This document shows positions 3,117 to 59,689 of a DNA stretch of 64,000 bases, piece by piece (within the stretch, counting starts at the first letter, position 1; the number at the start of each line of letters is the position of its first letter). Position numbers and translations under genes: made by a program. The notes under the pieces were generated by a model, which worked only from the letters and a program-made list of their open reading frames with translations, did no database searches and was not told where the DNA came from. The stretch is from Polytrichum commune (lineage: Eukaryota; Streptophyta; Polytrichopsida; Polytrichales; Polytrichaceae), in assembly GCA_950295325.1 (NCBI GenBank), contig OX485808.1, positions 20,976,527-21,040,526 of the forward strand, given 5' to 3'.

Positions 3117-3292
3117 GATTCGTGGTGTCTATGTAAACTTGGCCATTGCAAAGATGAAAATTCAGTGAGTTATACTATAGCTTGTAAATAACTATCTTTA
3201 GATGATCCGACTCCGCAAATAAAATCATAAACCCCGAATCAATCTAGTGAAATCAAAGTGGAATGAATTGGCCCTTGATCTTGTACAACACT

Positions 3293-24024: not shown

Positions 24025-27000
24025 TCAAAAAAAGTGCGGGATTTTCCTGTTGTTGGTAGTGGACTCTGAGGCCACTGAATCGAGGAATGCGACAGTGTCA
24101 ATTGCTGTCTCCACATGTTGCTGCTCGTGGCTTATGATTGCAATGGGATCAGGGGTTTTGTAATACTCATAGTCACCCACTTGAAAGTGGGTGCCGCCAG
24201 CAATGGTGATGAACTTGCTTGTTTTTAAGTTCACCAAAGGGCCTTGTCCCTTTGGGGGTGGGTCGACATTCCGGTATCTGTATCTGTCATATCCTCCCGG
24301 ACTTAGGCCATCCAGAGTGCCATAAATTTGGGCCACGGGGGTAGGAGATTGTGTGAGGTTAGCTGCCCACCCTCCTGCGTGCATTACGACTGCGAATAAT
24401 TTATGTGGGTACTTGCTCAAGTATAAAGTCGAGGCGAAACCCCCTGCTGAGTGGCCTCCTAGTGCCCACCTGTCCTTCGGAACACCTGAAAAAGAAATTC
24501 TTTGTGCTCAGGTTAACTTTGTGGGCAAATTACAAACTCTTTTTAGCTCTGCACCTGCTTCTCCTCGGGTATAATATGCACGATGCGCGAAGTCCAAATT
24601 GAGGCCGAAGCTATTTTCCTTAGAAATTTTTAGCTCATATGAATATCTTATTCGATATCAAATTGAAGATTCTCTCTTCTCAAATGTATAAGAAAGAGAA
24701 AACATATCAGGAAAAATATAGGCCCCCCCAAACATTTTGACTCTTGAACCTAGAATAGTTGGCAGAATTTCAGCGTTTACTCCAATCTCTACTTCTAAAC
24801 ACATGCCTTTTTAGTGTCCGTTCCTAGGTCCACACCTAACCACACACCACTCAAATAGTGGTCTCTGATTAAGATAAGTAACCGAATTAGACTTCCTTAC
24901 CTTACACATTTAGATGTCTTGTGACTTTACTTGGAGTGATGCGGTTCCACCATGAGTGTCTCTCTCCCTTTTTCGGGTCCCGGTGGCTTTGTATTTTTTC
25001 TAGTAGTGAATAAAGTGGTTCACTTTTCTATTTAAAAAAACAAAAACAAAAACAAGAGGTGCATCTATGACAGCCACAACCACAACTACTCACTCTTGAT
25101 AGAAAAAAGTTTGCACCAACATCCATAGAATTCTTCGTCTCCCAGTCCACGGATTGCACCAATACAAGGGCCTATAAGTTAGGTCAATCCATCCTTCAAC
25201 TACAACTGCACTTTGTGTGTATATGCAAAAAATCTTGATTGTGTGTAAACAGCCCCTTCAAGAACAGGTCTCGATTATGAGTTGCCTCAAGGAGGTCACC
25301 ACAATGACAAAGAGCTTACCAGAGAAAATGGGGTCCTTTGAGTTAAGCACCACATTTGCGTCAGCATAGGTGTTACTTCCAATTCGATTGGGTTGCTGGA
25401 CAATTACCACCAAATAGCCACGTGCAGCAATTTCGAAAGCCAATGAAGCGTATGCGCGGCCGTCAATTGCTGCTCCAGTGTAGTAGATAAGACCTCCTTT
25501 TATTCGTGTAGGAGTGAACACCCACCATAGCCGCTGTACCACAGACAATAGAAGCGAGGCGACGCATAATGTTAGCAGCATGAGTACAGGACTGGAAACA
25601 TTAAATGATACCTATCTACTATTTTAATAAGAAGATTCAAACCTTAGAGGTCAAAGGGCGCTTTTTGAAAATTACGATGACTTCAGGTGAAAGATGTTCA
25701 AATCACAAATGTTGTTTCCACTAAAAGAAATTTATTACAAAGCCACTTAATAGTTACATCCATTCAGCTGAAAGATGAATTTCACATCTTGACATGCCAA
25801 AAACCCATATTGTATAAGTTCTTAAGTGCAAATATTTATAAACAATTCATAACCAAGGTATTGTTTAACAAAAAGTTATCCCAAGGCCCAAAACTAACTT
25901 ATGTACCAAATTTTTTGAATAATAGAAAATAAATAAAGGGAATTGTTAAATTGACTACACACTGGTTAAAACGACCACAGACATGCGTCGCCTGGTCATA
26001 CGACCTATCAAAATTTGAGAAATTGTAGTTGTAAGCTGAAATGTAAAGAAAGAGGAAGCAGAGCAGACACCTTGTTCCTCTTCATGTGTGCGATGGAAAA
26101 TCAAATTTTGACAAGTCATGTGACCGCTCAACGTGGCTCTGTGGTCGATTTAACAATCCCCAAAATAAAAGATGAAATCACATATAGAAGTGGTGGCTAG
26201 GAATACTAATTATTGCATAAAATTGTACGTTGGATTCCTTCACTTGACTGTATTCACATCCTTGTTACAACTTATTTCTTCGAAGGATCTCAATAGAGTT
26301 GTTTCAATAAGGGTTACCTTTCTAGTAAGAATTGACTAAAGATGAAGTCTATCAACAACCAACAAAATTTAAGTTTTCTCGACGATGTTTGAGGGTCAAG
26401 AACATATGCAAACCTGTGGGCTGGTGTCAGGAATTGGCAGTTCTGTGAAGTGCACACGAATGTCGCCGGGATAGGGTTTGGAGTCATTGTGCCCTGGTGT
26501 CAATTTCTCATTGTCTGTGTACGAAAGAGCCCTCGCGGTAGCTCCAGGCCAGTGAGATAAAGAAACAGCTGTAACGAGCGTCTGGGCTATGCTATTAATG
26601 TTGCTGTCATTGTTTGTGCTTTCTTTTGCTAAATTCTGTTCATTACCCGAACAGAGACTGCTGGCAAAGTCATAGTGGCCCAGTTGAGGAAATGAGACAA
26701 TTTTGGTGTCTCCTGCAAGAACAACAGTGGAATGTTTCAAAATCAGAACCAAAACCAAAACCTGAAGGAACCACCAAACCCAGTTTCAACCTTTGAGACT
26801 GATCGATATCTACAGAGTTGAAAAAAGGCTGGATGGTTTGTTTGGGTTTTGTAAACTGTGGTATGTTAGCAGAGCTGTCCAAACCTCAGGATTTTTGGGC
26901 AACTCTTTCAACCGGCAATGAAAATATTTTCTACAAAGGTTGAGTGTGTCCTTTAGCATACACCATGAAGAGCAGTAATAAATCAATCTTTGCCCAGGAA

Positions 27001-28967
27001 TTCCTTGCAATGCCGCTCAAGGGATTTTGGTTCATGGCCACTACCATGGGTGTGGGGTAAAAACCAGTGTTGGACTAGTATAGTCTTTTTTTTATGCTAT
27101 TCAGTTATCTATAATGAGGATTTCACATTTTTTGATACTAGTAGGGTATGGCTATGTGATGGTATTTTTGTTGATACCTAGGTAAAATTGCCCTAGTTTT
27201 GACACATTCAATAACTCGGGTATACAAAAATTATGTTCACCTTGACATACCCACCAAATATCAATATTTCACTGTTATTACAACTTTGATACCCGTGGGA
27301 GGTTCTTTGTTACCACTATTGATGCTAATTACCAATGCCCATATACCGGTCCAAACTTGGTTAAAAACCTGCCCCTCCCAAATTTGTTGTTGATTAATTC
27401 CAACAGGGTTCCCTAGACTAAAATGACGTCTCGGACCCCGATTTGGGAGTCAAATCAGCAAAACATAGAAATCCCCGGGACTATGAAATGTTTCTCTACG
27501 TTTTCACTTTCCCCCATGGTAGCTACCATGAAACTTTACTCTCTTCAAGGTGGATGATCCCACAACAATATTCTCCATCATTGAGCCTTCCATCATTATC
27601 TTCATCACCATCACCATCACCAAAGTACAGCATGTGGTTTCAATCGAGAATGAAATTCCTGGATCGAACATTGCGCGTACATACCTTCCATGCGCGAGAA
27701 CGAGGCCTCCACCGTTGCAGGAGGAACCACACTATCTTTGCCGCCATACACAACTATCAGTAACAGGTTAACATCCACGAAACTCACGTCCTCCGGCAGA
27801 GCAGCTGCCAAGAGTACAAGAGCCTTCACCTTAGGGTGCAGAGTGAGTGCAAGGCGTGCTGCCACAGCTCCTGCTTCACCGTTACCCGCTAGAGTCCAAT
27901 ACTGCAGCTGCGGCTGCTGCATCATGGCTTCAATCACTCGTGCCACTGTTGCGTTCTCCACCACCACCGCATAATACCCGGACAACGCAACCGCTGAAAA
28001 TGCTCCCGAAAACAACAAGATTAGAACAAGCAAAGGAGTCCTCCATTCAACCAGAAGGGGAGAGAGAGAGAGAGAGAGAGAGAGATGGGGGGTAACTCCC
28101 TTGAAGGGATATGAACCTCATGCAATAAGAGGTATTATCAGGGGGCTACAAAGTAATGCGTATATTGACGGGATGTTCCACATATTTGATTAATATTTCT
28201 AGAGTACACCTATATATCTATATATATTCTCAAGTCGAATTTCTGTACCCTATCTTTATGTAGTCGTTTTATGAATTTTACTCAAAGGAAGGGATTACGC
28301 ACATCATTGATGAAGAAACTTTGTAATCAATCTGCTGGACCACATGACATTCTCTGAATGTGATTAGGGTGGAGGGCATAGTCTCTTCCATCCGAATATG
28401 AGAACTACGTACACTCGATTCGATAATAACGGTGAGGATAATGGCCATTGGGTGGACACAATCAGCTCGCCACCCAACCAACAGTGGGCATGTCCTAATC
28501 CACCATCAAACACCTATTGTAATTCATAAACTCAAACTCCCACCATCAAATTGCAATGCAAGAATCTCCATAATCCCAGCTGAATCCATGCACTTGAGAA
28601 CTTCAGAGATTGAGAATATTGAATTACCACGAGCATAAGGTGCATAAGCCTCCGGAGCGACTCCAGTCTCGGGAAGAATCACAAACCCTCGGGTAACATT
28701 CGGCCCTCCCACAAGAGGCGAGGCGGAATTGTTGGTGCTCAAGAAAGTAAGCCCAATTCCAGGTCTATGGGAGATTCTTAGAGTCTCCGTGGAGCGCATT
28801 GCCTCCTCGGCCGAACTGCTCCCTGGACAATAAGATGGCTCATCTTCTTCCTCTGCCTTTGCACTCTGTGTCAATCCTCGAAGGGAAGCTACCACTCCTA
28901 GCAGCAGCAACAGCAGCACCAGCAGCTCCGTGGACCTCATGGCCCGAGAACAGACTTGGGAAACCAA
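24025..28967 (-). CDS. Secreted tandem-domain alpha/beta-hydrolase, five exons
   Basis: Five exons can be joined in frame on the minus strand: 28967-28628, 27993-27685, 26712-26414, 25533-25320 and 24485-24025 (stop included), all with GT..AG introns of about 630-970 bases and matching phases (1, 1, 0, 1). The product is about 540 residues. It begins with a hydrophobic signal-peptide-like segment (residues 15-27; Met10 is an alternative start). Two copies of an Abhydrolase_5-like fold follow, each opening with a strand plus a Gly-x-x-Ala-Tyr-Ala-type loop. Domain 1 (about 50-300) has GNGEA at the nucleophile elbow, so Gly152 replaces the catalytic Ser, although Asp200 (YGGKD) and His229 remain. 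Domain 2 (about 317-540) has GGHSAGG with Ser400, Asp446 in GTLDG and His487 in GGTHF, an intact triad. Substrate is unknown; an extracellular or secretory-pathway esterase or lipase-like role is inferred. The exon 3-4 join is the least certain; a second gene starting at 25581 (Met) is the alternative. Confidence 0.8.
24895..25060 (+). repeat. Retroposon-like 3' end, copy 3, inside hydrolase intron 4
   Basis: CCTTACCTTACACATTTAGA, GGTTCCACCATGAGTG, CTTTGTATTTTTTCTAGTAG, TGAATAAAGTGGTTCACTTT and a tail of A runs. It is on the strand opposite to the gene, within intron 4 (24486-25319). Confidence 0.5.
28060..28084. repeat. (GA)n microsatellite in hydrolase intron 1
   Basis: About 12 GA units, inside intron 1 of the hydrolase gene. 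Confidence 0.9.
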
Positions 28968-32429: not shown

Positions 32430-35177
32430 TCCACTAGAAATGTGGTTTGACAAAAAAAAGACATGGTTTGACTTGAAATTTAAAAAGTGCATATATTATA
32501 AAATGATTAAAAACCATGGGGTATCGAAAATGCATTTGAGAATATAATAGATATATTCTAAGAATATTCATCAAGTATGTGAAACACCTTATGAATATGC
32601 TCATTACTTCATACCTTATAATCACACGTGACCCTTTAAATTAAAATGGAGGTAATGTGGAGTTACCTCCCCATGGAAATTTGAACTAGAAATCTACGTG
32701 ATTCACAAGTATTACTAGCTAGATGAGACCAATCCCAAGCTAGTATCAACATCCCGAGCCGTTGGATTGAATCGCAAATTGTCTCATCAAGTTAGCACCA
32801 AGTCATCCATTGTGATCTCAAACAAGTCAACGCCCTTCTTCCTGGATGCGGCATGCCTTGAGTAATGAATACCGGTAGTCTTTGATAAGTTACAATTGGG
32901 AGTCAATGCCTACTCCTCCAAGGACATGATCTATAACAAACAAAAAGAAAATGAAAAACATGTAATTGGACAAAACATACCACCATCAAAAAGGTTAGAG
33001 CCCCAGTAGCACCAACCTAGTTCATGTCCACCATAACTCAACGTCAAGGTTGTAGACCCTCATTGATGAATTCAGAAGTTCCAATAGGCCAACCATTTCA
33101 AGAAAGCATCTTAGTCCTTTGAGTTGCACGATCATGGCGTTTGTATCCAATGCTCCAACCTCATGATGCTCAACTATGCAACTTCCCCAGACTTAGACCC
33201 CTTGAAATTATGAAACAATTGCACCAACTCTTTCCTCTTGGATTTGTTTCTTGTGCTTTTCAAAAGATTACTCCTAGTGGAATCCACATGTGTGCTCCCC
33301 CTAGGGGCTGCACGTTTCATAATACATATGCCAAAAAATTTCTTTGGGCGGCACATAAAGTACCGTATATCAGGTAGCAACCTCTACAACATGGTTATAG
33401 GAGTTGGTGTGGCCTTTAAAACAATTTCAAATAATGTGGGCATGCCCGAAAATGTTGGTGATAGAGGCCTGCTCATACTTTTGCTCATGCTAGTTTCTCT
33501 CTACTCAGGGTAAGGGCATTGCAAACATTGGAAAAATAATCACATTCATTGACAAGTGATTTGCTAATTTTTTTTTTGTAGTGCATTAGTTTTTTAGATA
33601 TTAATGAAGAGATTAATTGAAAAAATCATTAATCTAATAGGGAATTTGTCATTTTGTTCACTAGGTGGTGTCACACTATGGGTGTATTAATTTGTAGTGA
33701 TATTGCAGTTTTCAACAATTGGTGATATTTGAAATTGAGGTAAATCAAAATTATGTTGTATTATAGTGAGAAAAATTATATGCATGACTCAAATACAACC
33801 TTTGGCACATGTCTAGGGTTAAAATTTGAGAGAAACAACTAAAAGTGGGCATGAACAACCATACTTTCATGATTTTAATGAACTATCACAAAGTGCAAAA
33901 AAATGAATAATACTCTTGAAATTGCCTTTGTATTGGGCATGTGCTTGTGAAATTTTGTGTCATGCTAGATAACATCAAATAGAAGGAATATGTGAAGATT
34001 TTCTTCTCAATAATACATACTAAATATAATATTTATTAAAAAATATCATTCAACCTTGTATGGCATTTAAAACCCTTATAAATAGTTTGGTAATCGGAGA
34101 TTTTTTCATGAGACTATTTAAAGATGTGGGTTTCAAGTAAAGAACAAGAAAAACACAAAATATATTCAATGTGACTTAATTTAGATGAAATAAAGTGATG
34201 TACATGGGTGGCACTAACCAATTTGACACAAATACATGTCATCACAATAAGAATTTGAACTAAATATTAAATCATTAGCATTTAGTTTGAGACTTTCCAA
34301 AGTCTCTTATTAACAAACATAGTGATAGTTACATATACGTCCCCGCAAAAAAATTCTATTAGTCTATATCAAGATTGAGGTGGGTTCAATTTGATTTCCT
34401 TAAACATTATTTAATTTTGATAAATCTGAACATGTGGTAGTCACTCTCTTGTCAATGGCTATATTTTGAATTTCAATGTACATGAACTAAAGATGACAAG
34501 TACATGTGTCCACCTTCAGTAGGGCTGTTGTTAAGGATCAAGGGCATATATTTTTTTCAAATTTGTTGAACAAAAATGCTTTTTGTTGGATTGCATGTAC
34601 CTTTCATAGTTGCCAAAATAATATAAGGAGTATTGTGCAACCACCCACTCCAATTCTTTTGCCAATGCTACACACTTCATACCACCTCAAGGTATGAAAC
34701 TATTATAACCTACCTAAGAATGATACATTGATGGCCACAAAACATTTTGAATTTTAGATACTAGTATGAACAACTCACATCCATATGGATAAATTTTACT
34801 AACAATATGTTGATCACCTTTACAAAACGCTCAAACCCAAGTCACCAAGTTCAACCATTTTTTATATCCCAAAATGCCCATTGCAAGTGCATTTAGGGGT
34901 GAAGTGGAAAGACCTGGTGAGAAAATTGCTCCAAGATTTCTAATGTAGATTAATTGACCATGGATTTAATATCAGAGGCCTCAAGTTTAATACTTTGTAA
35001 GATGAAGTTGAGATGAATAAGCACAAAATTTAACTTATAAAATACATGTTTAATATACACTAAACCCCTCAACACGAGTACCACAAAATTAAATTCCTCA
35101 TTTGTTGACGTGTGGTTTGAAGGAATTGTGACAAATGTGTACTAATTTGAAAGAGATGATATTGAAAACTTTGTATT
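32430..35177. other. Intergenic; no gene seen
   Basis: AT-rich. A Lys/Ser-rich minus-strand frame at 33174-33380 may be a transposon remnant, but no family was recognised. Confidence 0.5.
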
Positions 35178-35498
35178 GTATCATAAGGTTTCTAATTTTA
35201 ATTGATGTGAATCATGTTCCCTAAATTAACATCAAAGGCTCCAATCTAAGGGAGATTAAGTTAAGATGATAATATAAACCATCTAATTATAATTGTAGGA
35301 GAGATTTTACTAAACCCCTTAACATTATCCCCTTCTCTACTTTACTTTTATTTTTATTTTTATTTTTATTTTTACTTTCCTTCCTTTTTCCCTACTTGTC
35401 ACTTTTTACTTTTTATTTTTCAAATAGAATAGCATAAGTGAATGAAATCACTAGAATTAAAAAAATATCATCGAATATTGGAACATATTTTATAAATT
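35178..35498. repeat. 320-bp tandem duplication, unit 1
   Basis: Starts TGTATCATAAGGTTTCTAAT and runs to ACATATTTTATAAAT. It holds a (TTTTTA)n run. The next unit follows directly. Confidence 0.85.
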
Positions 35499-35806
35499 GT
35501 ATCATAAGGTTTCTAATTTTAATTGATGTGAATCATGGTCCCTAAATTAACATCAAAGGCTCCAATCTAAGGGAGATTAAGTTAAGATGATAATATAAAC
35601 CATCTAATTATAATTGTAGGAGAGATTTTACCAAACCCCTTAACATTATCCCTTTCTCTACTTTATTTTTATTTTTACTTTTATTTTCCTTCCTTTTTCC
35701 CTACTTGTCACTTTTTACTTTTTATTTTCAAATAGAATAGCATAAGTGAATGAAATCACTAGAATTAAAAAAACATCATCGAATATTGGAACATATTTTA
35801 TAAATA
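35499..35806. repeat. 320-bp tandem duplication, unit 2
   Basis: Nearly identical to unit 1 (about 97 percent by eye); the main difference is a shorter (TTTTTA)n run. Confidence 0.85.
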
Positions 35807-35979
35807 TGTATTTGACATTGAAACATGAACTGCGAAAAAATGCTACTCATATGATTAAAGCTTCAACTTTATGAGTCGGCTAGTGCAGGATTCTTCGGAA
35901 GGAACGAATTGCAAGGCACCAATCATCATACTTAGCCCCTGAAGACACACTTCAACTTAACTTCATACATCTCAAAATG

Positions 35980-36368
35980 CTCTTATTATTAGTTCCCAAT
36001 TGAGACAAAAACCACAGATTCATCATATCACGTTAGAACATGTTAATTTCAGTCATCTTGAAAAAAAAATTAAAAACAACAAGAGAGTATATAAGAGGTT
36101 CATCTTTTTACCATTCATATCCCATTAATAATTGGAGCCATAGAGATTGGAGAAGATCATAATCATGAGTGATCAGGATTTAGTGCAGAAAATCTACTCG
36201 TAGTAGGAGCGAGTCTTGCATTTGTTGAAGAAAGTAGGACAATTAATCCTGAGCATCTGCAGAGAGGCAAGTAGAAGAATTCTTCTTCTTGAGTTTGAGC
36301 AAGTTTAGAATTGACATAAAATCATCAAGAAGCAAGGAGGGAACATTGGGTCCGACCAAATTTCTCTC
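35980..36368. promoter_or_regulatory. Diverged copy of the upstream region of kinase copy 2
   Basis: Aligns with 45745-46050: TTCATCTTTTTACCATTCAT / TTCATCTTTTTGCCATCCAT, GCCATAGAGATTGGAGAAGAT / GCCATAGGGATTAAAGAAGAT, TTGCATTTG, GAGCATCTGCAGAGAGGCAA / GAGCTGCAGACAGGCGAAAG, and GAATTG ... ATCAAGA. A TATA-like box (GTATATAAG, 36089-36097) aligns with TGTATAAG at 45804. It probably was the promoter region of kinase copy 1, now 7 kb from its coding sequence. Confidence 0.55.
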
Positions 36369-36429
36369 AAATAAACCAATAAAAACATGAAAGTTAAACA
36401 ATATTTTTTCATAAAATTGATTCCTAATC

Positions 36430-37620
36430 AATATAGTGATAGTGCATAACTGCCCAAAAACTTTATAAAATCTAATTGCATAAAAGTTAAATTTATAAAG
36501 TCATTCATTCTGAAGCTATACTATAAAAAATAAGCCAAATGCAAAAAAATAGGATGTAAATAATAATAAAATTAATAGTTATAGATAATCAAATAACTAC
36601 ATAAAATAGTATAGATCTAGAAAGTTGTATGCCTTGAAAGAGGCTTATTTTTTTGGTTATATTTTATTTGAAATAACTGTTTATTGCATTATTAAAGAAT
36701 TATGGATATTATTCAAATACTGACTATTAATTTAATTCTCTTTAATAGTAATTGGGAAAAATTAAATTTATTAAGAATTTTTCCGTTTAAAAAAACTTTT
36801 TGGTTTAATTTTTATTACTAATCCGAGATTAAATCTAATAAATTGAAAATAAGTTTTTTTTTCAAACAAATATTTTTATAAAATTTGGCCATTTTTTATT
36901 AATATATTTCAATTTTCAAAATTTTCAAAATTTCATTAATTTTAGAAAAGTCCTAAAGTTAAAGATTTATCAATAGGTAAAGCAACTCCTATACCTAGCC
37001 AAAGAGCAGACTTTTGATCAACATTAAAAGTATATTGATTTTTTTCTAATAAACCTCCTAAGTCTTTCTTTATGAGATTAAAGTTTTAGTATATTTATGC
37101 TTTTAGCTGGAATATTTTTAAAAATTATTATTTAATAAAATAAGTATAATATATCAAATTAATAATTAAAATTAACAATATGTAACAAATAATAAAATTT
37201 AAAAGATAGCATTAAAAATAAAATTTAAAAAGTTTAATGAAATAAAATAAAAATAAAATTTTATGATTCAGCGAGAAAAACACCAACATCTTAGAATTAG
37301 ATTAGCTTCTCTTGAACAAATTTGGATCATAATTTATTGATCGAGAAAAAATAACTATTTAGAACATATTCAACTATACAAGATTTTTTTTTTCTTCCTC
37401 TTAAAAGAAAACATAAACTTCACAAGCAATACATTTATCAAATTCAAAATGAATCCATCCACGAAAACGTTATGATGGAATTAATTTTTCATATGGGTAT
37501 TGAATAGTTAGCTGTAAACGACTCATATGATCTAAGGTTATTATAAAACCATGTTCCGGGTTCGAGCCCCGGGCAACCCAAATTTTTTGTATAAATCTAA
37601 AATTTATATCTAATTTAATA
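36430..37620. other. Very AT-rich block with plastid-like fragments
   Basis: Base composition drops sharply to a plastid-intergenic level, with poly-A/T runs and no long frame. It ends with the 3' part of plastid trnK-UUU (37551-37580). A minus-strand run at 37016-37053 encodes LLEKNQYTFNVD, as in the N-terminal part of plastid ribosomal protein L23, followed by 24 codons I cannot assign. Most of the block I cannot place, so plastid origin is firm only for the tRNA piece. Confidence 0.5.
37551..37580 (+). pseudogene. trnK-UUU: 3' exon remnant of plastid trnK-UUU
   Basis: The bases GTTCCGGGTTCGAGCCCCGG and GCAACCCA give a perfect 5-bp T stem (CCGGG/CCCGG), a TTCGAGC loop, and the GCAACCC acceptor strand plus discriminator A of plastid tRNA-Lys(UUU). 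The 5' half (GGGTTGC..., anticodon arm) is absent nearby, as expected for the intron-split plastid gene broken on transfer, so this cannot make a tRNA. Confidence 0.7.
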
Positions 37621-39316
37621 GCTAATTATTGGTATAATTCTTTACCTAATGTCAAAGCTAAAACGAGCCACTCAGGGCCAAGGCCCCTCCGTTGGTGGGA
37701 GGAGGAGGCTCCTCGTAGGAGAGGCGGTTCATTTGAAACGCAATGAGGGTATGCGGGTGTGAAGTTAAGACCAAACTCAATCATGATCTGCTCAATAATG
37801 GGGGAAAAAATAACCAAAAAAAAAAATGATATCTTTGAGGCATAACTACATGTTGGCTTTGTGATCTTCACATTTCCTCATCCAAAAAACGCGACGTAGA
37901 TTGTTCACAACAGGGTTCCATTTCGAGCTAACTTATGATTAGTGTAAGTTAATGTAACTCCTTTGGGGTATCCCACTTACATTTTGAGGTGGCCCTAGCG
38001 TGCATTAAAAGCACAATCAGATATAGCAAAATGATGATGGTAATTGGAACTACACGAAGGAGGTAATCGATAGCATCAGCAAACAAAAGAGAATCTATCA
38101 AGACTTCGAGCAAGATGAAATGCTCAAATCAAGAACACAATACAAGTTACGTATTTGAGGATCACAAAGATAACTCCATTTGAATGTCATGCACACCAAA
38201 CCTGAAATCTGAAACCTTCCAGTATGTAAAAAGAAGATTAATTACCATGGTAGGGTGTTTCTGCAATTTTTATTTGTAAAATAAACATAGGCTTGTTAAA
38301 AACACTTGACTACATTATTTATCTCATTTAGTGAGGGTGGGATAATAGTGCGTGTGGGAAATTAGTGAAGGTGATACTAAATTTCTTCATGCTATGAAAT
38401 TAGTGCCACCATAAGATCTAGGAAGCATTGTTCATCCCGGCATTATTCACTGAAAGTACCAACACTAATTACTACAAATAATATACTCACAACAAAACTA
38501 TTCACAACATTCATGCTATTCATACCAACATCAATTTCTACTTATTATCTAAGTTTCTTTCACAAATTAGTCTAGTTCAAGTGATATGAGGTGAATCAAC
38601 AACAAACCTATAGGGGGTCAAGTTTTGATGTTGGATGGATGAGATATACGCTTGTATGCAATAATTCCCCCTCTCCAAATATTTTGGACTTGTGTATGCA
38701 GGTAGATGACCTGGTTTATTCACAAACAGGTAGGTTTCATGCATGGACAGTCGAGGAAGCATAATGAACTAAAATGTTTTACAAACAACACACAACATCA
38801 CAAGTGCAGGATAAATTGTCGACCAAGTCCATTTCACTTTATATAATAATGCTAAAAGTACAGTTTATGTTGGGATGACAACCTAATGCTGATGCCCATT
38901 TGCCTAGGGTAAGGGAATCTCTCAGATGGCACATAGTATACTACAGTCCCATAATTTGGCTAATACTTGTCCCAAGAAAACTTTGATGTGTCGATTTTTT
39001 ATCCTAAATAACCCTTTGAGGATGTGTGTTGAGGTTTATGTTCATGATTCTTTAATGACCAAAAAAGCCATGATTCAACTCCCAGTAAAGTTCTCCCTAC
39101 AAGTTAGTTTTCTTATTGAATGATTTCCCTTGTAAAGGGACAATATATACACAATACTACCAGATTTAACAAGACTGACATTTCCTTCCTGACAACTCAG
39201 ACAAGACTTTGAAGGCAAATCTTTTTACCAAATAGCACTTCGAATAGCACTTCGTTTCGATATTTGAGACAAGGTCAACAATGCATTAAACAACCATGAA
39301 CGATCATGATAATTAC
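37621..39316. other. Inserted block; no gene seen
   Basis: Unassigned sequence right of the plastid-like block. A fragment at about 38580-38680 resembles the right end of family B elements. Confidence 0.45.
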
Positions 39317-39375
39317 CAGCTGGAAGGGCTGATATTGGCAATCATGTTTGTCTTGGAGTTACCTCCTAAGGAATC
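39317..39375 (-). pseudogene. Isolated kinesin motor-domain exon
   Basis: Fifty-nine bases on the minus strand encode DSLGGNSKTNMIANISPSS, the strongly conserved kinesin motor segment near the end of the ATPase core (LLQDSLGGNSKT..IANVSPS in kinesin-12-like and other plant kinesins). The piece is bounded by a good acceptor (TGGGTGTAG) and a donor (GTAATT), so it looks like a true exon. I found no neighbouring kinesin exons (no NLVDLAGSE or FAQRAK segment) within several kb on this strand, so it is best read as a gene fragment or relic, possibly captured by the surrounding inserted block. A full gene with very long introns cannot be excluded. Confidence 0.6.
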
Positions 39376-40518
39376 CTACACCCAGGAGAGGGAACAAATG
39401 GCACAATTAAATCCTCGGGCTTGGTCGACCACAATTGACTGCTGCCTCGTTCATTAAATCTCGGATAGGCTAAAAGATAGGCAAAGCGAGTACAAAAATA
39501 GGCAGGCACTTATGCCAAGCTTAATCATACCTGGAGCAAACATGTAAGCTTTGAGTCAATAAGAAAACATCAGAAAACAAGGCTCATCCATATTATGAAA
39601 TACCACGTACAAAGCCACAACAACATAGCTACAAAGTTATACAGAGAGGAGTACTGGAAAAGTCCATTAGGTGAATCCATTAGCTAGAATTGTTGTATGA
39701 AGATCAGCTTAATGTGACCCTGTCCATTGGGGTTGTGGTTGGACATTAGCAAGTCAATTGCATGACTTGGCAGAGCTTTAGAGTGTGGATGCTCTTTTAC
39801 AATCACTTAAGCAATTGTCAACTGACATTGTTTAAAATAGGCACTCGTATATATGTTTGCATCTTTTTGGAGTGAGCTCTTGTGTGACTTCATGCTCTAC
39901 AAACAGGGAATTGGTAATGTGGTGACTAAACCAATATTGGGAATTTCCTTGTGGCTGGAGGGACGTGCCACCTCAACTCTTTTGACAAAATTATTTTTCT
40001 GCATATTAACAGACATCAAGTGGCATGCTCTTGATATTTTGTTGCAAGGAAGGCATTGTGTCGGTCAGTTGGTGATTAAGCAAATTACGTGCATCCTGTA
40101 TTTGAAGGCTCTTGATAGGATGTTGGTGAATTTGTAGCGAATACATTGGACTGGCTGGATGTCATTGAACATATGGAACAAGACTTGTAACAAATGTGGT
40201 CTATTTCCATAGTAATTGCAAGGCTTTATCTGATACCCATGTATCCAGGGGCTCGTTTGAATTCCTTAAAAGACATGACAAGATTGAATATTATTTTCTT
40301 ATGGGTTGATAGGCCTTGGTGAGCGTATGGAAGTTATATGTGGTTACTTCCATTGTGCAAATCTCACTTGTAGCATGAAGACGTGGACATCTCTAGGTCC
40401 TTAGTAGCCCTGAAATCCGGAAATTATGCGACAAGAGAGGTTGTTGTTGCAGTCCACAAAATAGTACAGGAAGTGCGTTAATACAGGAGAAATTTTGGGG
40501 TTAAATAAGAGCTTCGAC
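39376..40518. other. Inserted block; no gene seen
   Basis: I looked for upstream kinesin exons on the minus strand and found none. The plus-strand frame at 39853-40137 has no known motif. Confidence 0.45.
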
Positions 40519-40905
40519 TAAGATCAAATTTGTGCAGAGGTGAAACTCTGCCATGGCTGAGGATGATCTCGGGAGACAACCAGAGACATGTGGCCATTTC
40601 TTATCATGAAATTAGAAATGCAGAGGGGGAGCTTCATCCTCTTCAGATTCTTCTACACAACCTTTAATCGAACAACACCAGGACAGAGTTCTGAAATCTC
40701 TTAACGTTCTCTGCAACGTCCACTCGTCATTTTCCAGAATGGGCAGCAACCTTCAGACTTTCCTGTGGCTCCTTCCCTTCCGTCACTGCTAAGACACGAG
40801 AGACCGATGTTTTGCAAGTCCAGGAAGTTGAGGTCACCATTAGGTTGAACCAAACATCTCATACACCTCAATGACCGTGTGCACCAAAGATGCACCGCGC
40901 AGGAC
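40519..40905. repeat. 390-bp tandem duplication, unit 1
   Basis: GCAGAGGTGAAACTCTGCCATGG, CAACCAGAGACATGTGGCCA, GCTTCATCCTCTTC, CAACGTCCACTC and CCAGGAAGTTGAGGTCACC recur in order in the next unit. Both units carry a minus-strand frame with the shared peptide LQNI.LSCLSS, which is not enough to call a gene. Confidence 0.7.
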
Positions 40906-40917
40906 AATTTTCGGGAC

Positions 40918-41275
40918 CAAGTTCAGAATTTTGCAGAGGTTAAACTCTGGCATGGAATAAGCTGAAGATGATCTGCGGAGAGAGACAACCAGAGACATGT
41001 GGCCACTTCTTCTCACGAAATTTAAAATAATGCAGAGAGGAGAAGCTTCATCCTCTTCAAATTCTTCATCACAACCCCTAATCCAAACAGCACTAGGACA
41101 TACAGGGCTCTAAATTCTCTTAACATTTTCTACAACGTCCACTCCTCAACCTTCGGAATTACCTCTTGCTCCTTCCTTCCCTTCCCTCACTGCTCAGACA
41201 CGAATAACAAATATTTTGCAACTCCAGGAAGTCGAGGTCACCGTTTAGGTTAACCCAAACCGAACAAGCTCCAAC
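40918..41275. repeat. 390-bp tandem duplication, unit 2
   Basis: Second, about 80 percent identical copy of the preceding unit. The surroundings to 42250 are richer in GC and CT than the rest of the region and could hold a leader or promoter, but I cannot define a gene. Confidence 0.7.
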
Positions 41276-42259
41276 CAGCACACAAACACCAAACAATAAA
41301 CGAGAAGCTCGATGTTCCCTAACCTCGAATGCTCCCCCAACGATAGAAAGCCTCGATGAAGCACGTGGAGTTAGGGTTAACATCATCATCCCAGAGACCA
41401 TAGTACACTACCATACCCTTCATCTACTGCGGTAAAAAGTCTGTTACCTCCCAGTCTCCATCACAACTCTTCACAAATCCACAGCCCCTCCGCACCTAGC
41501 GCTGTCCAAGCTTGATTACACTAAAACAACATAGAGTTGCAAAATTCTCTGTACTCTCTTACTCTCTACAACCCCGATCGAAAGTGTGAGTGGAAGTAAC
41601 GCAGGACGATGCCCTATTCCAAACACTTACTCCCACCCATAGGCTTAATTAACTAGTACACACGAAACTTACAGCTCGGCCACATGTGAAAATTGTTCAG
41701 AGCTCGATTCCAACATGATCCGAGATGCTCACCCTAAACCTTGAGCAAGGAAAGAGTGGAATGTATTTTCCTCTCCTACAACCCCCTCTATCCCATAAAC
41801 CATAAGTGCAAAAACACCGCCACTGTGACGTGACGACACTCTTTCCGAAGATTCTTGAGTCGCGGATGTGACGATGTGAGGATGCGAGGATAGGAGTGAG
41901 ACAATCGTGCCTGGTTTTGTTTGCTTCGTTTGTCGAATTGTTCGCAACAACTAACACCACTTCGGTGCATTGTCTGCCGACCTCGTATGGATGGCGGACG
42001 AAAACTTAAGAATCGTTTCATAGGTTAGGTTTCTTCGAGGATTACAGGTTGCAAAACCATAAGCACACCATCATCATCACCACCACCACAGCCTGTCGGT
42101 TCCTAAAATGCACCCAACCACCAAACCAAAACAATCGTTGGGCAAAAACGCACGAACAAACAGGGGCGACGCCCGCCCTCTTCTTCCTCCTGCTCTCAGG
42201 GCACAAAACTTGCCGCTGGGGTCCACACTCTCGTCGCCCTAACCCTGAAAAAAATTGAG
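41276..42259. other. GC-richer, CT-rich stretch; no gene defined
   Basis: Overlapping minus-strand frames at 41697-42021 and a run of CAT/CAC codon-like repeats at 42055-42090. Composition differs from flanks and suggests a transcribed or promoter region near a gene, but no protein family is visible. Confidence 0.35.
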
Positions 42260-42385
42260 TGACGTGGCCGCCCCAGAGGGCGGCATTTCGGGAAGAGGCT
42301 ATAAGCCTCCTCTCGAATACCCGTTATAAGTTAAAAGCACTCACAAGAGCTACAATACTTTTACTTTTGATTCAAGCATTTAGCC

Positions 42386-42514
<129 letters not shown>

Positions 42515-42615
42515 TTATGAGAAGCAAATCTTTTTCTGTTAGGCGTTAGGCAATATTCTAGCAAAGCTAATTGTAAATATTAACAGCAGCAATGCGATTA
42601 GCCGCAAATAATGCA

Positions 42616-42678
42616 TCAAATCCATCCAGTAGCCGAAACAAGATTTCCAAATAAAAACATCCATGCCCAAACAGATAA
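42616..42678 (-). pseudogene. psaB: Plastid psaB fragment (nuclear plastid DNA)
   Basis: Twenty codons on the minus strand read LSVWAWMFLFGNLVSATGWI and then stop. This matches the conserved photosystem I P700 apoprotein A2 segment that normally reads LSVWAWMFLFGHLVWATG; the ligand-region His is Asn here. It is too short to function and sits next to unrelated plastid fragments. Confidence 0.75.
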
Positions 42679-42690
42679 GCTGTTCATATG

Positions 42691-42748
42691 ATGTTTTAAG
42701 GATTATTTACGAGTGCTATTCAAGCTTTATTATTTGCAACTTTAGCTG
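42691..42748 (+). pseudogene. atpI: Plastid atpI 3' fragment (nuclear plastid DNA)
   Basis: The plus strand encodes GLFTSAIQALLFATLA after an in-frame stop (TAA at 42697) where Leu is expected in MFLGLFTS. This is the last helix of plastid ATP synthase subunit a. In plastid genomes atpI and atpH share a strand; here they are in opposite orientation with psaB between them, so the block is scrambled. Confidence 0.75.
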
Positions 42749-43066
42749 TTAGCGTCAAATCCTATCTCGAGTCAATTAGCTTCGAAGACTACAGTAACTC
42801 ATCTGATCCATGTTGTGAAGATGATCTTTAGTGGATTGGTTAGGTGAAGTTTTGTGATCGTTGGTGGCGGCGACCTTGATTGTTCATGCGCTTCGACTTA
42901 ACCTCTTTTGGGTTTTGTCTTTAGGCATTCTGTTACGTGTTGCGAGTACTTCACCTCGCACATGACACGTTGGCAAGGGAGGAGGAAGACATCTCTGATC
43001 AGATATCTTGGGATCGACCTGTCTTTCTACTTGTTCTGCGTAGCAATTATTTTTAGAGCATTCATC

Positions 43067-44910
43067 ATGAAGTTCAAGAGCCGGTGGCTATGTTCTTGTG
43101 TGCTGCCTGCCAGAGATGTAAAGAGAGATCGTCCGCATTGCCAGTCTAGTGCCGGTGCAGACGAAGTTCGGGAATATTCTTCCGCTAGCACCTGTCCCTC
43201 CATTCATCAGAAGGAGGCAGTAAACATCAGCAGCAGGTCTGGATCAGGATTGTCACTTCGGGCGAGGAAACCAAACTTCCTCGGAAGGTTTCTGGAAGGC
43301 ATCGCGAAAAGACTATCATCATCGTCGGTGCACTTACGAGTCAATGCCTCCGACGTTGATCCTAACCCTGAACACCGACCTGGACCTAGAGCTGTCACTT
43401 TCAAGGACTTGGTGACATCTGAAAGTCCAGAGACTGCATTTTTCTCTATTAATCTCAAGCGTGAAGAAAACAACCCTGGTCCAGGAATCTCGTCGCAGAA
43501 ACACGACATTAAGATGATGCATTTGCCACGTGCAGATGCGTCGGCCGTCGAGCGGCGACAAGTGTCTTCTGTCTTTCCATGGACTTGTGGGCCAAGGAGG
43601 TTGGAGGATGTCGTAGTCATGGGTGAAACATTCTTAGGAAAGGGCTCTTATGGCAGTGTGCGCCTTTGCTCCTACAAAAGCACAGGCCACCTGATGGCTT
43701 GCAAGACCATTGACAAGGTTTATATGGAGTACTCATACGACCTCCACGACCGGCAGGCGTGCATGATTCGAAGCGAGGTGAAGATGCACCAACTGTGTTC
43801 GGATCACCCCAACGTGGTGCAAATGCTGGGATTGTTCGAGGACGACGCAGCAGTGCACATTCTGATGGAGTATTGCGACGCTGGGTGTTTGAGTGCAATC
43901 CTGCAGCAGAGGTATCCTCAAGGATTGCCTGTCAACGCTGCGGCTGTGGGGATGAAGCAGCTCGCAGATGCCTTGTGTTGGATCCATGGGAAGAACATTG
44001 TGCACAGAGACATCAAGCCTGATAACATCTTGGTCGCTACTGAAGGAAGGAGTGTGACTCGCCTCAAAGTGGCCGACTTTGGCTTTGCCATTCAGCTCCA
44101 GCCACAACAAGGTACTTAATTAGGTGTGGTCATTGCCCCTTGTGTAAGTCTACTAATTGGGGTAAGAATAATGGAATCATGTCAGAGCTGGAATTCAAGA
44201 ATGTGAAGGTTAAAACCTGAGGTTTCATAAACTCTGCTCCTCGTGTACGTACAACCCCAGTTACACGTTTAAACAGCAGTGATTTTTTTTGCAAAAAGGT
44301 TAATTTTAAAATTTGGAATGCCTGCTGCAAAAATTACCAACGTAATGAAGGAGGAACTGATCATATGGCTCTATATTAATCTGGGATGGTGTTTAATTGG
44401 GTTTCAGGGAAGGACTCCGGGATACTCATTGGGCCGACATCACGATGTGGGTCGCCAGGATACATGGCCCCTGAAGTTCGAAGGAAAGAACCCTACGGAA
44501 CCGCAGTGGACATTTGGAGTGCTGGAATTGTTCTTTGTAAAATGCTGACAGGGGAGAGGCCCTTTCCTCATGGAGAGTCTGTCCGCGACCTGGACTTCTC
44601 TCTGCCACAATGGTGGAATGTGCCTGACGAAGCCAGGCATCTCGTCACCCGAATGCTGCAGTTTGATCCACAAACGCGCATTACTGCTGCTCAGATTCTA
44701 GGTAGGTATTTAATATGCTTCTAAACGCTATGTATTCACCAGCATTTAAAATTGTTGAAAGTGAAGTTCAAGGTTGAGGGGTTGATTTTAGGGATGTCAA
44801 TTGGAGTAAAATGTTATTAAACTCGATTAATTACATTCCACGAGCTGATTATTTGTTTCCATTAATTGTGTACAGAACATCCGTGGATCAAGCATCACAA
44901 CCATCTGTAA
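43067..44910 (+). CDS. Ser/Thr protein kinase, CDPK/SnRK-like, copy 1 (HRD type)
   Basis: Three exons join in phase 1: 43067-44111, 44408-44701 and 44876-44910, each with canonical GT/AG ends, giving about 457 residues. The start was chosen at the Met that aligns with the start of the downstream paralogue; the open frame extends upstream to 42908 but that part is not conserved. Residues 1-185 are basic, Ser-rich and unrecognised. The kinase domain has the glycine-rich loop GKGSYGSV (from 191), Lys213 in ACKTIDK, an alpha-C Glu, HRDIKPDN (313-320), DFG (337-339), CGSPGYMAPE and DIWSAG, and ends at a HPWI motif as CDPK and SnRK kinase domains do. There are no EF-hands or other C-terminal domain, so it resembles kinase-only members such as PEP-carboxylase-kinase-like proteins. 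It probably acts as an active cytosolic or membrane-associated kinase; substrate unknown. It lies 1.6 kb upstream of a same-strand paralogue. Confidence 0.9.
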
Positions 44911-45577
44911 ACAGTTGTAACAACAGCAGGCCACAATGACGACATGACAACTGCAAGCAGGTGCAAGCTGACAATATACGCAGTGATCACTCGGTCTGCA
45001 ATATTCTTATATATATGTCGGTCATCAACTCTTGTATATGTTCCAACATTATGTCACACGAAGCCACGCATTTTCCAGTAGCGTTCTCTATAGATTACAG
45101 AAACAATAGTCAACTTCGGAGACATAATAGATCACCATGTTGATGAAGAAACTGATGAAATTTACAACATTGTATATACTTGTAAAGTATGTTTAGAGAG
45201 CTACAACTCTTGTATTTATGTTCGAACATCAAGTCACAGAAACGATGGTCAACTTTGGAGCAAATAAGCTCTGAATTCTTATTAATAAAGGAGTAGATCA
45301 TCATGTTGATGAAGCAAATTATGGAATTTAAAAAATTGTACATTCTTGTGAGGTTGGTACTAGTTGAACATACTTGTAAAGTTTGCATAGAGGGCTACCT
45401 ATCGGGTTCCACACTTCCTGTGTCAAAATGTAATTTCCACGGGAATATACGGCCGCCTAGCCCATGGGTCCCATTTTGACACGTGACGGTATAATTTAGT
45501 TCATGTTTATTTGATTATGGGGCACATAAGGAGTTCATTAGAGCTGTGATTTGGCCACGGTAATGAAGCGATCTCAC

Positions 45578-45781
45578 CTAACGAGGTTTGGGGTTTAAGG
45601 TGTCGAGGAGAGGGCCTTTAACATTCACGTCATGTCCCAGGCCTTGAGCCTTGTCGAACGTAAGGAATTCATCCTTGGAAAGCATGGGAGCCAATTTTGG
45701 ATCACCCTCCATCAACGGCTCCCAATGACCGAAGAATCGAGATGCTCCTAATGCCACCCGAGACACGGAACACAGACTCAT
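45578..45781 (-). CDS. Possible exon or gene fragment, unknown
   Basis: Sixty-seven codons with a protein-like composition (contains RFFGHWEPLMEGDPK and SKDEFLTFDKAQGLG) lie on the minus strand between the two kinase genes, diverging from copy 2. A GTGAG donor sits directly after the frame's stop codon (TAG|GTGAG), so it may be an exon read in part. I recognise no family. The 5' part overlaps the region conserved with 36 kb, where the frame is not kept, so it may be non-coding. Confidence 0.25.
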   Translation of the reverse strand: MSLCSVSRVALGASRFFGHWEPLMEGDPKLAPMLSKDEFLTFDKAQGLGHDVNVKGPLLDTLNPKPR

Positions 45782-46050
45782 CCGATCACGCAGAAGAATG
45801 TCATGTATAAGAAGGGCTTCATCTTTTTGCCATCCATCTCACATTCAGGCCATAGGGATTAAAGAAGATAGCTGCGCGTAGGTTTAGGAGTGCAGAGATT
45901 CGATTCGTGGTACGGCGCTAATTGCATTTGGCGAAGAGCTTAGAATGCTCTTGATGAGCTGCAGACAGGCGAAAGAAGAAGAATTCATCAGAACACGTTT
46001 GGAATTGCCACAGAATCAAGAGGCGCAGAGCTGGGAATGGTTGCTTTTCC
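45745..46050 (+). promoter_or_regulatory. Putative promoter region of kinase copy 2
   Basis: The segment is conserved with 35980-36368 and has a TATA-like TGTATAAG near 45804, about 700 bases before the kinase start. A spliced leader of several hundred bases is implied. Promoter role is inferred from conservation and position only. Confidence 0.4.
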
Positions 46051-46515
46051 TTCATGTGTGCACTTCGTGACCTAAGTAGGACTTAAAAAGGTTGTCGATC
46101 GTTGATTAGCATTATATCCTATCTCGACATAATTAGCTTCGAAGACTGATCTCCATGTTGTGATGGTCTTCAGTGGAATCTTTTGTTTTGTGTGATCGCT
46201 GTACACTGTGTTCAGACGAGTCGGCGCTAAAGAGATTCAAGGCGAAGAATTCCTGCGACGGTGAGACTAGTTGTAGGTTTCGTAAGTCTGTCGAGCCGGC
46301 GAGCTTGGTCGGAGTTAACCTCTTTTAGGTTTCATCTTTACCCATTCTGTTGTTTCGTGAAGCGTAATTACTCTTGGACACAGGTTTGCAAGGAAGGAGG
46401 AAGAATTGCTGCAAGTGATTAGAGACGTCCAGGTGACTGACGAGTAACACATTAAATCCGGAGCCTGTCATTTCATTGATTGATCATTTGCGTCGACTCA
46501 ATTCGTTTGAGAAAC

Positions 46516-48487
46516 ATGTCGAAGATCAAGAGCCGCTGGATATGTTTTTGTGTCATGTCTGCCAGAGATGTAATGAGAGATGATCCGCATCGTCAGTATG
46601 GTGGTGCAGACGAAGTTCGGGAATCTGCTGCGAATACTCTCAGCACCAGCTCCTCCATTCATCAGAAGAAGGCAGTAAACACCAGCAGCAGGTCTGGAGG
46701 ATTGTGTCTTCAGTTAAAGAAAAGAAACTTTCTCAGGAGATTTCTGAAACGCATCGCGAAAAGATCATCGTCGATGCATTTATTTAGCATTTCCGGCGCT
46801 CCTAATCCTGAACAACGACTTGCACCTAGAGGTAGCTATTCCACGGACAGCTTGATGACATCTGGAAGTCCAAAAACTACATTCTATTCCATCTATTCCA
46901 AGCCTGAAATAAACCCTAATCCAGTCTCAAAAATCTCGTCGCAGAAACGCGACACGGGGATCATGTCTAATTTACCACCTGCTGTTGCACCGCCCGTCGA
47001 GCGGCGACAGGTTCGAAATTCTTCAGTCTTTGCATGGACTCGTGGGCCAAGGAAAATAGAGGATTTCGTAGCAATGGATGGAACATTCTTAGGAAAGGGC
47101 TCTTATGGCAGTGTACGCCTCTGCAACAACAAAAGCACAGGCCACCTGATGGCTTGCAAGACCATTGACAAGGTTAAAATGGAGAACTCATACGACCTCC
47201 ACGATCGGCAGGCGTGCATGATTCGAAGGGAGGTGAAGATGCACCAACTGTGTTCGGATCATCCCAACGTGGTGCAAATGATGGGATTGTTCGAGGACGA
47301 CGCAGCAGTGCACATTCTGATGGAGTATTGCGACGCTGGATGTTTGAGTGAAATCCTGCGGAGGTATCCTCGGGGATTCCCTGTCAACACTGCGGCTGTG
47401 GGGATGAAGCAGCTCGCAGATGCCTTGTGTTGGATTCATGAGAAGAATATCGTGCACGGAGATATTAAGCCTGAAAACATCTTGGTAGCTGCTCACGGAA
47501 GGCGTGTGGCTCGCCTTAAAGTGGGTGATTTTGGCTTTGCCTGTCAGCTCAAGCCAGAACAAGGTAGTTAGCAAACTGCAATTAGTCTGTAATTAAGCTG
47601 GAGATTGTGATTGTGTGTTGCTGAGATTGATGGCAAAGTAAACTGCATTCAATGATGACTATGAATAGTCCACAATGAGGATGTATGTCAGCTGATCTGT
47701 TATGTCAGTGCATCTATGTAGAGCTCTTGGAATGAGTATGATACTGCGAACCTACAAGTTTGTAGCACATGAAGCTTTAGAGTAAGGTTAGTGGATTTCC
47801 AAGAACCCAATGTCATCCTTTTTGCACAGGATGAAGCAACAAAATTTATCCTCAAACTATGTGTTGGGCTTCATTTAATTTATTGAGACAATAATGCGTT
47901 TTGCAGAATGGTTAAGTTTTGGATTCCTGCATAAAATGTTATCACCAACAAGGTAACAATCATATGGTGTCATCTGTGATGATATTCTGTTTTACAGGGG
48001 TGGACTCGGTACTAATGAGGCCGAGGTCTCGATGTGGGTCGCCAGGATATATGGCTCCCGAAGTTCAGAGGAAGGAAGCTTATGGAACAGCAGTGGACAT
48101 TTGGAGTGCTGGAGTTGTTCTTTGCAAAATGCTGACACGGGAGATGCCCTTTGATAGCTATGATTTGCAGGCTGTCCGCAACCTGAACTTCTCACTGCCA
48201 CATTGGAAGCATGTTCCTGACGAAGCCAGGCATCTCGTCAGCCGAATGCTTGAATATAATCCTCAAAAGCGCATTACAGCTGCTCAGATTCTCGGTAAGT
48301 TCAGCTAAACTATATTTATACATGTTTATCAGCATTGTTGAAATTAGTGCAAAGGTTGAGGGATGGATGTCAGGGATGTTAATTGGTGCGGTTTAAATCC
48401 AAAACCCTAACTTGCTCACGAGTTTATCATCGTTTCTACTGATTGTATACAGAGAATCCTTGGATTAAAGAACACAACGAAATGTAA
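46516..48487 (+). CDS. Ser/Thr protein kinase, CDPK/SnRK-like, copy 2 (HGD variant)
   Basis: Three exons, 46516-47563, 47998-48294 and 48453-48487, with the same phase-1 junctions as the upstream paralogue, encode about 459 residues. The glycine-rich loop GKGSYGSV (from 193), Lys215, DFG at 338-340, CGSPGYMAPE and DIWSAG are intact, and the last exon supplies the terminal NPWI motif. The catalytic-loop motif is HGDIKPEN (from 314) in place of HRD, so the Arg is replaced by Gly while the catalytic Asp316 is kept: a non-RD kinase, expected to be independent of activation-loop phosphorylation or altered in regulation. The N-terminal 185 residues align with copy 1 only patchily and are Ser/Lys-rich. 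A Met at 46480 is a possible alternative start in the same frame. The leader (about 46110-46515) is homologous to that of copy 1 and probably holds an intron ending near ACACAG at 46378-46383. Confidence 0.9.
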
Positions 48488-48812
48488 GTTGTACCAATAA
48501 CAGTGCTTCACCACAATCGGACATAAGCGCAAGAAGGTGCAAGATGACAACTTTATACGCAGTGATCAATCGGCCTGCATGATTCTGGCAATTCTCGTAG
48601 TCAACTCTTACAAGTATATATGTTCTCTCTATAGGACAGAAATACTGGTCAACTTCGGAGCGGACAAGTTGTGACTTATTGTTATTGTAGGAGTAGATCA
48701 TCATGCTGATGAAACAACATGAGAGGTATATTGAACATAGTTGTAATGTGGCTAGACTGTATATTTAATTCGACCGATTGGCTCAATGAAACATCCAAAA
48801 TTTGAAAAAATT

Positions 48813-48922
48813 ATACATTTGAAACTGTATAATTTCAAATGTTTATACATAATTTCTGGTCAATAGAGTTTCAAATGATAAGTTTGTGACCCACTAGTTA
48901 CTGAGTTTGATGTGTATCATAT
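48813..48922. repeat. 110-bp tandem duplication, unit 1
   Basis: Begins ATACATTTGAAACTGTATAA. The start of the unit is itself a hairpin (CATTTGAAA ... TTTCAAATG). An identical unit follows; both lie downstream of kinase copy 2. Confidence 0.85.
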
Positions 48923-49030
48923 ATACATTTGAAACTGTATAATTTCAAATGTTTATACATAATTTCTGGTCAATAGAGTTTCAAATGATAAGTTTGTGAC
49001 CCACTAGTTACTGAGTTTGATGTGTATCAT
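48923..49030. repeat. 110-bp tandem duplication, unit 2
   Basis: Identical by eye to unit 1 up to GATGTGTATCAT, which points to a very recent duplication. Confidence 0.85.
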
Positions 49031-59125: not shown

Positions 59126-59407
59126 GTCCACGATGCACATTTGCGTGTATGCTTTGCAACTTCTAGTGCGCAATGCTCTTTACGGATGCTTCCCTCCCTC
59201 ACTGCCAATTTCCATGCTGTCCCTTTCAATCAAATCATCACAGAGGTGGAGTTGGGCAAATTCATTGGGTGCGTGCTTGCCTCGATTGAGGGATAATTAT
59301 AGGCAACAATACGATCGACAATTCAAGTTCAATCATGCAAGCAAGTTTGAACAATTAAACCTCGCGATAGTAGGCCTCACGATAGCAGGGCAAGTGTATT
59401 GTTCATA
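59126..59407. repeat. 282-bp tandem duplication, unit 1
   Basis: Begins GTCCACGATGCACATTTGCG and ends GCAAGTGTATTGTTCATA. Followed directly by a copy differing at about two positions. Confidence 0.95.
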
Positions 59408-59689
59408 GTCCACGATGCACATTTGCGTGTATGCTTTGCAACTTCTAGTGCGCAATGCTCTTTACGGATGCTTCCCTCCCTCACTGCCAATTTCCATGCT
59501 GTCCCTTTCAATCAAATCATCACAGAGGTGGAGTTGGGCAAATTCATTGGGTGCGTGCTTGCCTCGATTGAGGTATAATTATAGTCAACAATACGATCGA
59601 CAATTCAAGTTCAATCATGCAAGCAAGTTTGAACAATTAAACCTCGCGATAGTAGGCCTCACGATAGCAGGGCAAGTGTATTGTTCATA
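59408..59689. repeat. 282-bp tandem duplication, unit 2
   Basis: Differs from unit 1 only near GAGGTATAATTATAGTCAAC (GAGGGATAATTATAGGCAAC in unit 1). Both units contain a plus-strand frame of about 90 codons without known motifs, which I do not call as a gene. Confidence 0.95.

Follow-up and report, generated by a model that had tools for sequence, protein, structure and literature searches.

Homology between two tandem kinase copies is split by a 6.4-kb insert

Why should one of two tandem protein kinase genes have an uninterrupted upstream region when DNA with plastid gene pieces at both of its ends lies upstream of the other, and could the interrupted gene still work? This question is raised by a stretch of 64,000 bases of the Polytrichum commune genome (contig OX485808.1, positions 20,976,527 to 21,040,526; 38% GC, no N), referred to here as the window. 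Both genes are on the plus strand, and each has three exons, GT-AG introns, and no internal stops. Copy 1 (43067-44910; exons 43,067-44,111, 44,408-44,701, and 44,876-44,910) encodes 457 residues, and copy 2 (46516-48487; exons 46,516-47,563, 47,998-48,294, and 48,453-48,487) encodes 459 residues, both in an intact open reading frame (ORF). The exon ORFs of both copies exceeded the Pfam cut-off for Pkinase (PF00069) when the first exon of copy 1 and the first and second exons of copy 2 were scanned. In an alignment of the full models, the two proteins share 329 identical residues, with 120 mismatches and 18 gap positions, and both have the DFG and APE motifs. The catalytic loop of copy 2 (47455-47463) reads HGD where copy 1 has HRD. 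The 3' flank of copy 2 also contains an exact tandem duplication with a 110-bp unit (48812-49030).

The initial annotation of the window had placed a diverged copy of the copy 2 upstream region at 35980-36368, far to the left of copy 1. Alignment of this segment with 45745-46050 bore out the proposal, giving a score of 136 compared to a mean of 25.0 (sd, 3.4; maximum, 37) for 200 dinucleotide shuffles, none of which reached 136. Three control segments, each about 390 bases long, scored 21, 26.5, and 23 against the same target, values reached by 75, 13, and 62 of 200 shuffles, respectively. The DNA immediately to the left of copy 1 (42300-42760) showed no homology to 45700-46110 (score, 21; 161 of 200 shuffles as high). 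When 45741-46041 was compared to the whole window by short-word blastn, the sole non-self match with E < 1 was 36087-36324 (E = 6e-18, 66% identity). An 11-base-word self-BLAST of the window at E ≤ 1e-5 had missed the pair, and we therefore regard the homology as real but diverged. The two tracts, both on the plus strand, extend over 35977-36366 and 45741-46103. Firm homology covers 36,087-36,344, and left of 36,087 there is only a gap-rich alignment (63 columns, 48 gaps). The firm tract is headed by a TATA-like element in both copies (TATATAAG at 36,088 and TATAAG at 45,806), and its best-conserved block is its first 40 columns (80%), after the TATA-like element. A tandem duplication of about 320 bp (35175-35811, 94% identity) is situated a short distance to the left of the tract in copy 1.

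On the right side, alignment of the leader at 42700-43100 with 46060-46521 gave a score of 92 (shuffle maximum, 36; 0 of 200 as high). Copy 1 again matches the copy 2 leader from 42,746-42,749 onward, close to the position of about 42758 given initially, and the remainder of the copy 1 leader occupies 42747-43066 on the plus strand. Because colinear homology flanks both sides, about 6.38 kb in copy 1 (36367-42746) faces about 60 bp in copy 2. The left edge of this insert is soft by about 25 bp, and the right edge could be narrowed to approximately 42,743-42,747. This copy 2 leader segment (46,042-46,103) finds no good match in copy 1 and perhaps reflects a target-site deletion, although divergence blurs the left edge.

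Plastid gene pieces lie at both ends of the insert

The left end of the insert (about 36.37-37.65 kb) is an AT-rich block with a GC content of 15-30%. It carries the 3' end of plastid petD, encoding cytochrome b6-f subunit 4, with its stop codon (36942-37028, minus strand; E = 2.7e-6), and a plastid-type 3' exon of trnK-UUU comprising the T arm and acceptor (37553-37579, plus strand). In a search of 84,980 prokaryote species genomes with the 27-base trnK-UUU pattern, all five matches fell within cyanobacterial tRNA-Lys(ttt) genes. Together with petD, this supports the initial description of the block as AT-rich, plastid-like DNA with a trnK-UUU piece. Of its 1,280 bp, the identified pieces cover about 115.

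The right block (about 42.32-42.746 kb) is a mosaic of C-terminal pieces of three plastid genes. These are atpH (42392-42478, minus strand), matching ATP synthase c chain with E = 4.3e-12 and with the next three matches after the best one all named chloroplastic; psaB (42613-42690, minus strand; E = 7.8e-4); and, with a weak match, atpI (42700-42746, plus strand; E = 0.017), for which both of two matches were chloroplast ATP synthase subunit a. The atpI piece ends where homology to copy 2 returns, in agreement with the earlier suggestion that the right edge of such a mosaic coincides with that point. Identified pieces account for about 210 of the 430 bp. For the remaining DNA of the left and right end blocks, we infer a plastid origin from composition and position. 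Rfam and ARAGORN searches over the window gave no matches; a permissive Rfam search of the two plastid blocks gave best E values of 0.24 and 0.74, all under gathering scores; and the exact trnK, psaB, and petD patterns each had 0 matches in viral contigs.

Adjoining the atpH piece is an array of the 12-bp unit TTTTATGAGAGG (42475-42522, plus strand), with three exact copies and 3.8 in total. It is the only exact triple in the window among units of 9-20 bp with more than two base types.

We considered two explanations that dispense with an insertion into copy 1 after the duplication. Plastid DNA is generally plentiful in plant libraries, and plastid reads might have been fused into a nuclear contig during assembly. 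Long plastid-identical pieces would then be expected; instead, the pieces are short, scrambled, and mixed with nuclear-like DNA, and they show residue differences to plastid proteins with solved structures from other species, so that an assembly artefact seems highly improbable. It is scarcely more credible that the insert is ancestral and that copy 2 deleted it or derives from an allele without it. The comparison does rest on a single uninterrupted copy, yet a deletion must have cleared the plastid pieces to their edges while sparing about 60 bp missing from copy 1. We conclude that an insert of about 6.4 kb with plastid pieces at both ends is present in copy 1 only, as first annotated.

The middle of the insert resembles nuclear DNA

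Between the two plastid blocks lies nuclear-like filler (37665-42250). It includes a diverged tandem repeat as well as pieces with similarity elsewhere in the window. The segments at 38,302-38,423 and 38,565-38,675 resemble other places in the window with 75% and 82% identity. The tandem repeat (40,516-40,855 and 40,915-41,260) has a unit of about 400 bp and approximately 75% identity between its copies. A kinesin motor fragment occupies 39319-39557 on the minus strand, with two exons (39,531-39,557 and 39,319-39,375) separated by a 155-nt GT-AG intron; the joined piece matched with E = 3.9e-8. Stop codons stand beside the kinesin exons, and a motif search found no further kinesin motif or neighboring kinesin exon in the insert. 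A six-frame Pfam scan of the insert yielded two matches only, ATP-synt_C slightly short of its cut-off and kinesin (E = 0.05); for one frame, the comparison was extended to solved structures.

A DNA transposon with its own transposase was rejected as an explanation for the whole insert, based on the absence of a transposase domain in the six frames at E ≤ 0.1 and of a long inverted match between the inner boundaries. The insert may nevertheless represent a non-autonomous element.

The inner boundaries bear on whether the insert was acquired at once. In a two-step history, a smaller plastid insertion would have come first, and a mobile element or a nuclear segment of 4.6 kb (37.67-42.25 kb) would later have split it. 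There is a sharp change in composition at each inner boundary, and the middle contains the pieces described above that are like other parts of the window. Two neighboring stable hairpins lie at the boundary of the GC-rich filler and the plastid mosaic (42267-42317, plus strand): folding of 42230-42330 gave a z score of -4.68, with 0 of 200 shuffles as stable, compared to -0.82 and 43 of 200 for the left inner boundary (37655-37760). Against such a history, local matches between the inner boundaries, whether direct or inverted, scored only 18 at best, and shuffles of longer stretches averaged 21-26 under the same scoring. The lack of a transposase domain likewise argues against a mobile element. 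We regard the two-step history as possible but doubtful.

The insert probably originated in an end-joining repair event

We consider it probable that the insert is a complex nuclear integrant of plastid DNA (NUPT) with nuclear filler that entered copy 1 by end joining once the tandem duplication had taken place, with the gene body left intact. The kinase gene would first have been duplicated in tandem in the nuclear genome. A double-strand break would then have occurred in the transcribed 5' leader of copy 1, and end joining, with a loss of about 60 bp, would have sealed it in a single event with a concatemer of scrambled plastid petD, trnK, atpH, psaB, and atpI pieces around nuclear DNA with a kinesin fragment. 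Copy 1 would most likely be expressed, either from the old promoter, with the insert spliced out within a leader intron, or through a newly gained start site at about 42.2-42.9 kb.

Several observations are counted for this account. Two or more plastid fragments are present at one nuclear locus (petD, trnK, atpH, and psaB, with a weak atpI match), and the insert is flanked by nuclear DNA, namely, colinear kinase-upstream homology on the left and the kinase leader and intron-bearing gene on the right. The pieces come from separate plastid genes and are in mixed orientation, with petD, atpH, and psaB on the minus strand and trnK and atpI on the plus strand. In land-plant plastids, atpH and atpI are presumably on one strand; here, they are on the minus and plus strands, respectively. 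Plastid pieces lie near both edges of the insert and are absent from copy 2, which has about 60 bp more target sequence, the TATA-like element to the left of the insert is conserved, and both ORFs are intact. The triplicated TTTTATGAGAGG also counts, because it resembles the repeated copying that is proposed for repair by DNA polymerase theta (Pol-theta) (PMC10923293). The initial suggestion of a repaired break is supported, with end joining as the likely origin of the scar.

Other observations weigh against this account. Plastid identity was established for only a minor part of the left AT-rich block, some stretches of which show weak, AT-rich similarity to other places in the window (59-64% identity, E = 3e-6 to 8e-6 with the low-complexity filter off). 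Treating copy 2 as the ancestral form is a matter of parsimony only, and the nuclear middle may have been inserted separately at a later time. Our confidence is moderate, since the end blocks are only partly identified as plastid and the inner boundaries have no shuffle control.

The insert probably lies within the transcribed leader

Since the TATA-like element and the inferred transcriptional start precede the insert, the core promoter and start of copy 1 (about 36,120; about 45,840 in copy 2) probably lie to its left, which would place the insert approximately 245 bp into the transcribed leader, with the first leader part within the upstream tract. In the initial annotation, copy 1 looked cut off from its ancestral promoter, which is not supported in that wording. 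Two points count against our placement of the promoter: where DNA is AT-rich, a TATA-like hexamer indicates a core promoter only weakly, and the insert itself contains eight matches to a 7-base TATA pattern as well as TATAAG at 42,300 and 42,325, any of which could serve as a new promoter.

Read unspliced, the insert would place 124 ATG triplets ahead of the copy 1 start codon, and a working copy 1 therefore needs splicing or a new start. We scanned the leaders for intron signals using splice-site weights with which the known donors of both kinase genes score 3.0-4.3. Copy 1 has a candidate acceptor at 42,925 (score, 3.8), composed of TTAAC, a pyrimidine-rich run, and AG at 42,923-42,924, with a near counterpart at 46,329 (2.5) in copy 2. 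The copy 2 leader contains no ATG from 46,330 to the start codon, versus six in 45,838-46,329. The copy 1 acceptor and the ATG-free end of the copy 2 leader fit a leader intron. Further signals in the copy 2 leader were an acceptor at 46,384 (3.2) and donors at 45,910 (2.2), 46,261 (3.1), 46,384 (3.8), and 46,433 (3.8).

Removal of the insert as a simple intron is disfavored by the finding that no donor scored above 2 in either the upstream tract or the leader of copy 1. In addition, an ATG at 42,962 lies after the candidate copy 1 acceptor and before the start codon, and the copy 2 acceptor at 46,384 outscores the one at 46,329.

The copy 1 coding sequence remains intact

Copy 1 retains its ORF, splice sites, and HRD, DFG, and APE motifs. 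Over 449 aligned codons, comparison of the copies gave a synonymous divergence (dS) of 0.31, a nonsynonymous divergence (dN) of 0.155, and a dN/dS ratio (omega) of 0.50 (bootstrap, 0.37-0.68); for the 267 codons of the kinase domain, omega was 0.38 (0.25-0.57). The idea, raised in the initial annotation, that copy 1 might be transcriptionally dead thus finds no support in its coding sequence. Pairwise omega, it should be said on the other side, cannot tell which copy is constrained or whether constraint outlasted the insertion.

We simulated the chance of intactness without selection. At divergences of 1%, 2%, and 3.7%, it was 61%, 38%, and 17%, respectively, when only stops were counted, and 16%, 3%, and 0.08% with indels included at an assumed rate. 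The outcome leans toward continued selection on copy 1 but falls short of proof. Approximately 6-7 changed residues in about 90 plastid codons of the insert, relative to reference proteins, some of them from solved structures, suggested a divergence of 3-4%, which is an upper guess because the reference proteins come from other species.

These values bear on whether copy 1 has been transcriptionally silenced with decay not yet begun, a state that would be compatible with either insertion history. The upstream ATG triplets of an unspliced transcript and the lack of a copy 1 leader donor scoring above 2 both favor silencing. The intact ORF, splice sites, and catalytic motifs speak against it, given a chance intactness of 17% (stops) or 0.08% (indels) at the rough figure of 3.7%, although a young insert would leave this argument with little force, as the chance would be 61% and 16% at 1% divergence. 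On balance, we think silencing rather unlikely.

Other features of the window

Elsewhere in the window, we noted a near-perfect tandem duplication at 59126-59695 (unit, 282 bp; 99%) and a self-complementary stretch of about 347 bp at 2939-3285 (86%), which is a hairpin-type element. Two minus-strand ORFs (24028-24507 and 27620-28117) matched Abhydrolase_5 (alpha/beta hydrolase) just over the Pfam cut-off.

Comparison with known organelle DNA insertions

The kind of event proposed here is already well known, and this locus is another example. Published work documents complex NUPTs at breaks, their pieces having been joined before or during integration, and describes organelle DNA as break filler and microhomology of 1-7 bp (PMC6215612, PMC7037861). 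The copy 1 insert is like the complex NUPTs found at double-strand breaks in that several plastid pieces from separate genes are joined at one nuclear site, and it differs from them in that its plastid pieces are separated by nuclear-like DNA (about 4.6 kb) containing a kinesin fragment (PMC7037861, PMC6215612). Its probable location in an untranslated region is also shared, as most NUPTs and nuclear integrants of mitochondrial DNA are said to lie in untranslated regions and introns (PMC7037861). In tobacco, break repair suppresses plastid-to-nucleus transfer (PMC12181080).

Templated fillers are described as a mark of Pol-theta joining, for which repeated copying is proposed (PMC10923293). 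The short local repeat at the copy 1 junction is similar to the Pol-theta fillers at Arabidopsis breaks (PMC10923293). Unlike those, it is a single fossil junction, and later replication slippage would yield an identical array. The organelle-derived enhancers 12-7 and 12-Q (PMC7037861) offer a parallel for organelle DNA upstream of a nuclear gene, an arrangement that is known at the kinase locus from sequence alone.

It is possible, though in our view less likely than not, that the plastid/kinesin insert has been co-opted into the function of copy 1, serving either as a long intron in its leader or as a new promoter. If this is true, a repair scar would have split the regulation of the kinase pair, leaving copy 2 with an uninterrupted leader and HGD and copy 1 with HRD and a new leader. 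The uninterrupted tandem sister provides an internal control that shows the probable form of the leader before organelle DNA entered, and one could thus measure, inside one genome, how a complex NUPT affects the regulation of a single gene.

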